DNA of 64,000 bases. Origin: Mesoflavibacter zeaxanthinifaciens DSM 18436 (GTDB taxonomy: Bacteria; Bacteroidota; Bacteroidia; Flavobacteriales; Flavobacteriaceae). Under the pieces are notes generated by a model, which was given only the letters and a program-made list of their open reading frames with translations, was not told the DNA's origin and did no database searches. Positions within the stretch are counted from its first letter, which is position 1. Every line of letters starts with the position of its first letter. The position numbers and the translations under genes were made by a program. The DNA is taken from the NCBI RefSeq assembly GCF_000422365.1, contig NZ_AULQ01000001.1, forward strand, positions 496,001-560,000. Direction: 5' to 3'. Shown here one piece after another: positions 13,250-15,705 of this stretch.

Positions 13250-13708
13250 TTATTTACCAAACATTTTGTAAATAACCCAAGCTGGACCAATTAATAAAAA
13301 CTGTAAATCATCAATAAAACTAGGTTTTTTACCCTCTACTTTATGTCCATAAAATTGCCCAATCCATGCTAAGACAAAAATTATTATAGATGTAATTGCT
13401 AAATTAAAATATTGAGCTATAAAGTAATTTACTATTAGACAAAATGCAGAAAAAAACAGCATTTGTAAACCAATTTTTAAAGACATTCTAAAATAAAAAA
13501 ACACTAAAACAAAAGCTAATACAACAAAAGCCCAGTTTGCAATAATAGGATGTGGTAAAAAACGACTTAAAAAACCACTAGGAATAGACATAAACAGACC
13601 AACTATACTTAAAAAAATTGCAGGCACACAAATAAAGTGAATAGAAATATTTGTTGGATTTTGATGGCTTACTGCGTAACTATCAAACCATTCTTTAGCT
13701 GTTCTCAT
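13250..13708 (-). CDS. Mpo1-like (DUF962) membrane protein
   Basis: A 152-residue protein with about four membrane helices. It matches the Mpo1/DUF962 pattern: SHQNPTNISIHFICVPA near residues 14-30 and a late GQFYGHKVEGKKPSFID motif. The conserved histidines are iron ligands in yeast Mpo1, a dioxygenase for alpha-oxidation of 2-hydroxy fatty acids. The same chemistry on flavobacterial hydroxy fatty acids or sphingolipid-like lipids is plausible but inferred. Single gene; its stop lies 1 bp from the mutS2 stop. Confidence 0.85.
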   Translation of the reverse strand: MRTAKEWFDSYAVSHQNPTNISIHFICVPAIFLSIVGLFMSIPSGFLSRFLPHPIIANWAFVVLAFVLVFFYFRMSLKIGLQMLFFSAFCLIVNYFIAQYFNLAITSIIIFVLAWIGQFYGHKVEGKKPSFIDDLQFLLIGPAWVIYKMFGK

Positions 13709-13749: not shown

Positions 13750-14166
13750 ATGAATCACTTACCAAAGCATAAACAATTAATACTTTTTGATGGCGTTTGC
13801 AACCTGTGCAATAACTCTGTTCAATTTGTAATAAAGCATGACAAAAAGAATCAGTTTATGTTTGCTCCTTTACAAGGTAAGGCTGGACAAGAAATCATTA
13901 GAAAATACAATATTAATACCGCAAAAAAAGATTCAATTTTATTATATTCTGAAGAAAAAGGACTTAAGTTGAAATCTACAGCAGCATTATATATAGCTAA
14001 AGATTTAGGATTTCCTTACGCTCTACTTTCTGTGTTTTTAATTGTTCCTGCTTTTATCAGAAATATGGTTTACGATTTTATAGCCAAAAACCGCTACAAA
14101 TGGTACGGTAAAAAAGAAGCTTGTATGATTCCTACACCAGAGTTAAAGAGCAAATTTTTGGAGTAA
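13750..14166 (+). CDS. DCC-family (DUF393) thiol-disulfide oxidoreductase-like protein
   Basis: A 138-residue protein starting with the family motif LILFDGVCNLCNNSV, which contains the D-x2-CxxC arrangement (C17 and C20) expected of a thioredoxin-like redox centre. The family is annotated as thiol-disulfide oxidoreductase from fold similarity; no reaction has been fixed. A hydrophobic stretch near residues 95-113 may associate with the membrane. It is divergent from the Mpo1-like gene with 41 bp between starts. Confidence 0.85.
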   Translation: MNHLPKHKQLILFDGVCNLCNNSVQFVIKHDKKNQFMFAPLQGKAGQEIIRKYNINTAKKDSILLYSEEKGLKLKSTAALYIAKDLGFPYALLSVFLIVPAFIRNMVYDFIAKNRYKWYGKKEACMIPTPELKSKFLE

Positions 14167-14169
14167 TAT

Positions 14170-14295
14170 TGTTCTCGATACAATACTTCTATTGTCGCAA
14201 TACTCGAATCGACGAGTTTAAGATATATAAAACCACGACACCTCGAGTGTTTTTTGAAGAATGAGAAAAATGCATCGAAAAGCTTTATCTCACCC
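14170..14295. repeat. degenerate TCGA-rich intergenic repeat
   Basis: This part of the 390-bp gene-free stretch contains five TCGA sites within 104 bp (14175, 14204, 14209, 14243, 14275) and small inverted repeats such as CTCGAATCGACGAG and CCTCGAGTG. The words TTCTCGATACA, CTCGAGTG, GAAGAATGAGAAA and ATCGAAAAGCTTTATCTCA are reminiscent of REP-like intergenic elements that I recall as abundant in Flavobacteriaceae. Only this one copy is in the window, so the repeat call rests on recall and composition. Confidence 0.4.
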
Positions 14296-14394
14296 AAAGT
14301 ATAAGTTTACTTAATAAAAAGTTCACTTCCCTAATTACAATTTTTTTAGTTTATACTTTCAAATTAATTTAGCATTGAGAGTAAGTAATAAAAG

Positions 14395-14523
14395 ATCTCA
14401 AAGCATTACTGTTAACTTAACCCTTACTTCTGTTAGTAAGGAACGAGTTAAGTTCTAAACAAAAGGCATGTCTAACCGTTTGTTTAGCTTAGGTTACTAA
14501 TGGACAATGTAATGTTTTGAGAT
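14395..14523 (+). ncRNA. candidate structured RNA, closing stem with internal hairpins
   Basis: No gene covers this region. A 15-bp closing stem pairs 14395-14409 with 14509-14523 (one G-U). Inside are a long hairpin (AACTTAAC 14414-14421 with GTTAAGTT 14447-14454, then 14422-14428 with 14435-14441, separated by a 5-nt bulge AACGA), a second hairpin (CTAAACAAA 14455-14463 with TTTGTTTAG 14479-14487) and a mini hairpin (TTAG-GTTA-CTAA 14489-14500). Loop bases UAACC (14473-14477) could alternatively pair with GGUUA (14492-14496). The plus strand is favoured because the closing stem is followed by ATTTATTTTTTA. It could belong to a known flavobacterial family such as Flavo-1 or 6S-Flavo; I cannot confirm this. 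Confidence 0.65.
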
Positions 14524-14556
14524 TTATTTTTTAGGTAAAGAGGTTTAAACATTTAA

Positions 14557-15705
14557 TTATTTTAAAATCTTTTTTAGATAATGATAAGCTTCTTTTTCCA
14601 TGATATCAAAACCACCATCTGCAAAAGCCATTAATTTTATATCAGCAAATAAATCTGCTAAATCATTACGGTAATAATCATGTGTTTTTACAGCTTCGAT
14701 AATATTTTGTATGCTTTGGTAGTCATTATCTTGGTTAAACTTCTCTTCTACTCTTTTGTAAATATCCTTATCAACTCTAGATAAAATATATTCTTTTTCT
14801 TTTTTGGTTTCTTCTAAATCAGAATGAGCTACAAAAATTAAAATGTATGCTAATAATTCTTCTTTAGACCATTGTTTAGGATCTTGCATGTTTCCTGTTG
14901 TTAAAGTTCCGTATTCTGTCCACGAACCATCGTAAACGCTATTGTTATAACCTAATAGTGTTGCAGCTAAACTTAAAATTGAAGCTGTAATACCAGAGCC
15001 ACAAGTAAACACTAAATGTTGATTATTGTTTGCTAAATCTTTAAAAGTTGAAGCTATTTGTTCTTTATGCTGAAATTTATGTTCGTTTAAGATATTTTGA
15101 TATGGTAAATTAACCGAGTTTGGTATATGTCCTGAGCGTAAACCTTCTCTTGGTTCTGGTACGCGACACATAAAACGATCGTTAGACCTTGCATCGATAA
15201 TCTTAAAATTTGGATCTTTATTTATAGCTTCTAAAGATTCAAAATAGACAATGTTATTTGGTTTGTATTTAGCTATAAAATTTCCTGAGTTATATTGTTT
15301 TTCAGTTTTAACTTCTGTTGGAAATTTCTGAGCCTTCCATTCAGGAAAACCTCCATCTAAAACAGCTACATTGTTATGTCCAAATGTTTTAAATAACCAC
15401 CAAACACGCGGACTTGAATATATTCCAAATTCATCATAAACAACAATAAAATCATCGTGATTTATTCCTAATTTTTGTGCTTCGGTTTGAAATTGAATTT
15501 CAGAAGGAATTGTATTAGGAAATTCTGCTGAAGCATCACTAAAAGCATTCTTTATATCAAAAAATCTAGCATTTTCTATTTGTTGTTCTTCTGATTGAAA
15601 GTTGCTAGAAACTTTTTGAATCGTTCCATTTAAAACAACAACGTTTGGATGGCTTAAATGATCTTTTAACCACTTTACAGAAACAATATTATCAAAACCA
15701 TCCAT
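14557..15705 (-). CDS. 3-mercaptopyruvate-type sulfurtransferase with TerB-like C-terminal extension
   Basis: A 382-residue protein with two rhodanese domains (about 8-130 and 150-275). Only the second has the active-site cysteine, C235 in CGSGIT, the loop type seen in 3-mercaptopyruvate sulfurtransferases rather than thiosulfate rhodaneses. The usual two-domain enzyme ends near residue 280. Here about 100 more residues follow, with a helical, acidic pattern (FVAHSDLEETKKEKEYIL and later LMAFADGGFDIMEKEAYHYL) that resembles TerB tellurite-resistance domains. Likely cytosolic, transferring sulfur to a thiol acceptor. The tail may bind metal or a partner; that is inference. Confidence 0.88.
   Translation of the reverse strand: MDGFDNIVSVKWLKDHLSHPNVVVLNGTIQKVSSNFQSEEQQIENARFFDIKNAFSDASAEFPNTIPSEIQFQTEAQKLGINHDDFIVVYDEFGIYSSPRVWWLFKTFGHNNVAVLDGGFPEWKAQKFPTEVKTEKQYNSGNFIAKYKPNNIVYFESLEAINKDPNFKIIDARSNDRFMCRVPEPREGLRSGHIPNSVNLPYQNILNEHKFQHKEQIASTFKDLANNNQHLVFTCGSGITASILSLAATLLGYNNSVYDGSWTEYGTLTTGNMQDPKQWSKEELLAYILIFVAHSDLEETKKEKEYILSRVDKDIYKRVEEKFNQDNDYQSIQNIIEAVKTHDYYRNDLADLFADIKLMAFADGGFDIMEKEAYHYLKKILK

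Follow-up and report, generated by a model that had tools for sequence, protein, structure and literature searches.

To our knowledge, few regulatory RNAs have been characterised in the Flavobacteriaceae. The described families that compare with the element at positions 14395–14523 (plus strand) of the window (the whole stretch of 64,000 nucleotides that was analysed) are 6S-Flavo (RF01685) and Flavo-1 (RF01705), both, like the element, structured RNAs of flavobacteria. 6S-Flavo also has a similar length (108 model positions) and one match in this genome, whereas the element differs from it in architecture, with four helices meeting at a junction and two hairpin loops that are conserved. Flavo-1 differs in copy number, with 20 matches in the Mesoflavibacter zeaxanthinifaciens genome against a single copy of the element. 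The first-pass annotation had suggested that the element might be a member of either family, and this was refuted, with no overlapping Rfam match even at E ≤ 5. An Infernal-type check against the 4227 models of Rfam 15 returned only weak unrelated matches and no family at the element, and in 20 further member loci none lay at the element at E ≤ 1, the sole Flavo-1 match there being ~1.3 kb away (L099). The genome carries a separate 6S-Flavo (one match, 104.4 bits, G000:C5). Its 20 Flavo-1 matches lie elsewhere, 17 of them over the cut-off; spread across several contigs, they are many for one genome.

The nearest sRNA by taxonomy is Rfp18 of Flavobacterium psychrophilum, which is reported to be widely conserved in its genus (PMC9723704). 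Like the element, Rfp18 is described as an sRNA conserved in flavobacteria, strongly structured and with three or more stem-loops. When the element's covariance model was applied to g146, a genus that we infer to be Flavobacterium because it accounts for 10 of 21 listed rows of an order-wide draw of genomes, 24 of 41 genomes gave matches at E ≤ 1. Those listed were only 32–73 nt long, and the eight inspected were mostly plain hairpins. If g146 is Flavobacterium, these short matches make identity of the element with Rfp18 less likely.

Two general kinds of RNA 3′ end also bear comparison. Intrinsic terminators between convergent genes share with the element the sequence of its closing stem (AGCCUYAAAGC...GCUUURAGGCUUUU type), its place and its U-tract, but have a short loop where the element holds a structure of ~99 nt with conserved loops. 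Like sRNAs from mRNA 3′ ends, the element often lies 3′ of a same-strand gene and has a terminator-like 3′ end; unlike them, it occurs where neither Hfq nor ProQ was found (0/40 genomes each, its own included; controls positive in 5/14 and 1/14), and its upstream ORF is divergent in 7/47 loci. The lack of a detected Hfq or ProQ in these 40 genomes is a context that makes RNA regulation there of interest. Among the publications listed by literature searches, one of them very unspecific, we recognised none as describing the element. We class the element, which Rfam 15 lacks, as a new family within a known kind, the clade-specific structured bacterial sRNAs, and its alignment is available for deposit.

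The features of the element and its surroundings are given below in window positions, with the evidence for each in brackets.

14395–14409 with 14509–14523, plus strand: P1, 15-bp closing stem (fold)
14410–14413 with 14503–14506, plus strand: P1b, 4-bp extension of P1 (fold)
14414–14428, plus strand: 5′ strand of P2, a bulged 15-bp hairpin of 8 + 7 bp (fold, RNAalifold, covariation)
14429–14434, plus strand: L2, hexaloop UCNGUU, a conserved unpaired motif (column conservation)
14435–14441, plus strand: 3′ strand of P2b (fold, covariation)
14442–14446, plus strand: 5-nt 3′ bulge of P2, AACGA here and mostly AAUGA-like across the family (column conservation, mutual information)
14447–14454, plus strand: 3′ strand of P2a (fold, covariation)
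14455–14487, plus strand: P3, hairpin of 9 bp + 2 bp (fold, covariation)
14467–14475, plus strand: L3, 9-nt loop CAUGUCUAA with conserved core GUCUA (column conservation)
14489–14500, plus strand: P4, short 4-bp hairpin, longer in some relatives (fold, mutual information)
14524–14532, plus strand: U-rich tail TTATTTTTT, terminator-like (letters, column conservation)
14370–14377, plus strand: possible −7 element TAGCATTG (5/6 fixed positions of TAnnTTTG; weak, picked by eye, without a null model)
13750–14166, plus strand: upstream neighbour, DCC1-like thiol-disulfide oxidoreductase (PF04134, E 4.8e-31)
14557–15705, minus strand: convergent neighbour, rhodanese-domain protein (PF00581, E 3.5e-27)

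The element lies in a gap of 390 bp, the edges of which are the convergent stop codons at 14166 and 14557. The first-pass annotation had called this the largest gene-free stretch, and by eye no larger gap was seen between ORFs of 90 aa or more once the tRNA stretch and both ends of the window are set aside. The remaining part of the gap (14168–14300) is a dispersed repeat with eight further diverged copies or fragments in the same genome (71–87% identity, E ≤ 0.0041). An Mpo1-like gene lies on the minus strand at 13250–13708, between mutS2 and the DCC gene; its place in the sister genome G001 holds no ORF of at least 80 aa, while L137 has a related ORF.

Folding placed all four of the helices first proposed from the letters (the closing stem, the bulged hairpin and the 9-bp and 4-bp hairpins) where the first-pass annotation had put them, with a minimum free energy of −43.3 kcal/mol for the plus strand of 14395–14523. 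The same annotation had judged a chance origin of so many complementarities unlikely, and this was borne out, as none of 200 dinucleotide shuffles was as stable (mean −22.39, sd 3.52, z −5.94). The minus strand also folds stably (z −5.54). The T-rich tail reported for the plus strand was located as TTATTTTTT at 14524–14532, directly after P1, so that P1 and TTATTTTTT together form a stem with an immediate U-tract as in an intrinsic terminator; yet P1 encloses 99 nt, and a terminator scan of 14100–14700 for hairpins with 3–8 nt loops returned none.

Compensatory change among homologues was assessed in an alignment (A6) of 49 rows, of which 47 were distinct, two repeat rows being merged. Changes on both sides of the pair were seen in 36 of 40 pairs, above every shuffle, with 404 such cells where shuffles average 129 (0/500 as high), and 88.8% of cells were paired, against 28–48% when the partner strand was slid. 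RNAalifold, applied to a 35-row alignment, predicted 34 pairs, 32 of which had at least one both-side change. Both alignments were fitted by covariance model (CM) and lean towards the structure, so the count was repeated on 35 rows aligned by MAFFT, using the fold found in the window. Here, 82.0% of cells were paired (72.1% in shuffles), and 30/35 pairs had both-side changes compared to 20.3 in shuffles, none of 500 being as high. P1, P2a and P2b were 97–99% paired in the MAFFT alignment and P3 only 49%, which we put down to misregistered variable arms because the CM-fitted alignment gives 81%.

By helix, the two parts of P2 were paired in 92.0% and 97.9% of A6 cells, and P3 in 81.4%, with both-side changes in 9/10 of its pairs. 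The outer ten pairs of P1 were unpaired in 0–4 of the 47 rows and the inner five in 10–20, so that the conserved part of P1 is its outer 10 bp. Mutual information over well-filled pairs of A6 columns placed the top 20 within helices (one, in P3, is off-register) and added two pairs that are absent from the model structure, 14411–14505 in P1b (A-U, G-C, U-A) and 14492–14497 in P4; lower-ranked pairs outside the helices are left without interpretation. G-U cells outnumbered A-C cells by 165 to 34, which identifies the plus strand as the RNA. Taken together, these data strongly support the initial view of the locus as a structured RNA candidate or something new, and on this sequence evidence the element is a structured RNA with a conserved fold.

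Loop sequences are kept while stem sequences vary. Across 35 sequences, five of the six L2 positions are 97–100% identical, the L3 core is conserved at G 97%, U 94%, C 97%, U 89% and A 86%, the first two bases of the P2 bulge are A in 100% and 89%, and the first two positions of the tail are T in 91% and 97%. Among the 45 pairs listed by mutual information, the P2 bulge has no partner, save that column 61 is paired once with the tail, a pair to which we attach no interpretation. The loop–linker pseudoknot first proposed (UAACC with GGUUA) did not survive alignment, being lost even in the sister genome G001, where GGUUA has become GUUUA. A kissing interaction of L2 with L3 (GUUAG with CUAAC) would have all five Watson–Crick pairs in 16/35 sequences, by eye, but L3 is unchanged where L2 reads GUUAA or AUUAA (L051, L053, L091, L092, L097) and no such pair is among the 45 listed. 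Since L3 does not track the changes in L2, this interaction is not claimed. Antisense targets of L3 were not enriched either: the complement GTTAGACWTG occurred 11 times versus 10 for a reversed-pattern control in the window's genome (G000) and 17 versus 14 in G001, the RNA itself included, and, the RNA's own site excepted, the four sites shared by both genomes lie inside ORFs, on either strand.

The distribution of the element was followed by DNA search in 60 genomes (its own and 59 relatives) and by two covariance models. At the DNA level, matches were found in G001 (93% identity), G030 (84% over 61 nt) and at two places in G006 (76–77%), the remaining matches listed being short and weak. 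The element's own genome has a single copy (one model match), and its next DNA match there covers 26 bases in an unrelated context (E 0.018). The first model (R1), built from five sequences (alignment A1), matched 22/199 family genomes at 25 places (E ≤ 0.1) and 12 of 29 named rhodanese loci at E ≤ 3e-14, these 29 being all but one of the 30 rhodanese loci found (L069 was left out). Matches came from Psychroserpens (mesophilus, algicola, jangbogonensis, burtonensis, SPM9 and one MAG), a Winogradskyella MAG, Bizionia paragorgiae, Bizionia saleffrena, Arcticiflavibacter luteus, an Algicola MAG and Flavobacteriales bacterium 33_180_T64. In the other 17 of the 29 loci, ten of them from Tenacibaculum, no match was convincing (best E 0.04). 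These 17 include the examined loci of Psychroserpens damuponensis and of one Bizionia MAG, whose congeners carry the element, indicating that it is dispensable in places. Present in named genera like Psychroserpens and Bizionia, an RNA proven by covariation, with two fixed recognition loops, offers a handle on flavobacterial RNA regulation.

The second model (R2, 35 sequences) matched 37/397 family genomes and 27/237 genera at E ≤ 0.01 before inspection. Two matches (L150 in G268 and L151 in G269) were dropped, as neither has the conserved loops and both resemble terminators or some different structure, leaving 35/397 genomes and 25/237 genera. Judged by these genomic matches, the element is a clade-specific structured RNA of ~25 related genera. 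Of the genomes drawn across the order, the element's own was the sole match (1/246 genomes, 1/82 genera), and since the 21 rows listed there all belong to the same family, the draw says little on other families. Stricter filters were applied whenever more than 40 genomes were searched, which makes absences in those searches weaker evidence. The dropped elements themselves (L150:3998-4140 and L151:3985-4051) are terminator-like; the one in L150 is made up of several hairpins and could be a different structured RNA.

Gene context was tabulated for 47 distinct loci, leaving out L150, L151 and duplicates (L051 = L144, L054 = L127, L059 = L122). In 44 of them, the fetched stretch held at least one of mutS2, DCC, DUF4139, rhodanese, MATCAP-family and SDF genes, our definition of a common neighbourhood. 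By Pfam matches of representatives, the ORF immediately upstream was DUF4139 in 18 loci and DCC in 16, and the ORF immediately downstream was MATCAP in 22 and rhodanese in 13. The upstream ORF was on the same strand in 39 loci and on the opposite strand in seven, one locus ending at the contig end; two of the seven were Pfam-supported FMN reductases, and five were smaller ORFs in two clusters, representatives of which had no Pfam match or a sub-threshold one. The divergent orientation in these seven loci suggests that the element may have its own promoter there. The flavobacterial promoter consensus is TAnnTTTG. Sequences like TAGCATTG were seen by eye 11–16 nt upstream of P1 in 8/29 loci of one group, and exact TAnnTTTG occurred in 7/50 upstream stretches (≤200 nt) versus 2/50 downstream stretches (150 nt); as a promoter of the element, the motif is weak and suggestive only.

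G006, G030 and G153 each have, besides the main copy, a second copy near lspA. The second copies form one branch in a FastTree tree, which the main copy of G006 adjoins while those of G030 and G153 lie elsewhere (support values were not inspected). They keep L2 and L3; both loops being kept in another neighbourhood, the function is apparently not tied to one gene neighbourhood.

The reading that we favour, at about an even chance, is a trans-acting, clade-specific sRNA that works without Hfq or ProQ. A stable RNA of ~130–145 nt would be made from the plus strand, either as its own transcript or as an end piece processed from the mRNA of the upstream gene, and would join four helices: the long closing stem, the bulged UCNGUU hairpin, the GUCUA-loop hairpin and the small fourth hairpin. 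P1 and the U-tract would terminate transcription and clamp both ends, while the conserved loops L2 and L3, together with the bulge, would act in trans on a partner (an mRNA, another RNA or a protein). The loops are read as contact sites in trans because the second copy, elsewhere, keeps them. As Hfq and ProQ were not found, any pairing with RNA would be unaided or would use another protein, and their absence fits a self-sufficient RNA acting through its loops. Against the trans-acting sRNA stand the weak promoter motifs, the lack of antisense enrichment for L3, the congeners without the RNA and the 3′-UTR-like arrangement of the DUF4139 loci. This last feature favours the main rival, a tentative alternative in which the element acts in cis as the intrinsic terminator or 3′ UTR of the upstream gene (often DCC or DUF4139) and of the converging gene, possibly under the control of a loop-binding protein. 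No more than 20 nt separate the stop codon from the start of the RNA in 15 of the 18 DUF4139-type loci; the downstream ORF is convergent in 43/47 loci (same strand in 4/47) and its end falls inside the model's 3′ tail in 24/47; and, of 13 relatives without the RNA that were inspected by eye, five (L044, L046, L049, L066 and L071) clearly have a plain hairpin terminator at the equivalent place. The terminator-like P1, the plain hairpins that make up most of the short matches in other genomes and the stable minus-strand fold (z −5.54) are likewise consistent with a role in cis. By contrast, a terminator requires neither conserved loops nor an inner structure of 99 nt, the ratio of G-U to A-C cells is one-sided (165 to 34), the second copy has the same loops in a different neighbourhood, and the upstream ORF is divergent in seven loci.

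Next comes an RNA that sequesters a protein or binds a ligand, the junction and loops forming the site for one protein or metabolite. 6S RNA, which binds RNA polymerase, would be the precedent. We consider this unlikely as a separate explanation, and the trans-acting sRNA reading could include it as a special case. The enclosed multibranch shape, with invariant loop and bulge nucleotides and without an exposed single-stranded seed, would suit it, as would the unenriched L3 antisense and the missing Hfq and ProQ; there is, however, no known partner, and a riboswitch-like position, with a same-strand gene next, occurs at most in 4/47 loci. Improbable, in our estimate, is the more specific proposal of a new class of chaperone-independent regulator, in which a four-helix module in the loop of a terminator, with the stem as clamp, would bind one protein or ligand through its loops and bulge, in ~25 genera and in the second copy. 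A non-autonomous, MITE-like mobile element with terminal inverted repeats would share the inverted ends, small size, AT-richness and intergenic place. It was rejected as highly implausible, and present-day activity was refuted: the element is single-copy in its own genome, carrier genomes of the 25 genera hold one or two copies each, in two neighbourhoods, both arms covary, the neighbourhood is common to 44/47 loci, no target-site duplication was seen by eye, and a 25-letter pattern had no exact match in viral contigs. Chance palindromes in AT-rich intergenic DNA have nothing beyond AT-richness in their favour, and the fold z-score together with covariation across genera in both the CM-fitted and MAFFT alignments makes their probability practically negligible.

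Two further observations concern genes beside the RNA. In G030 and G153, the second copy is followed on the same strand by a small conserved ORF of ~63–66 aa (cluster c23), at L039:6771-6971 (plus strand) and at the matching place in L119. At L050:6400-8565 (minus strand), the gene adjoining the RNA encodes an odd mix, a DUF4139/DUF4140 protein with an inserted CarboxypepD_reg-like domain and TonB Plug.
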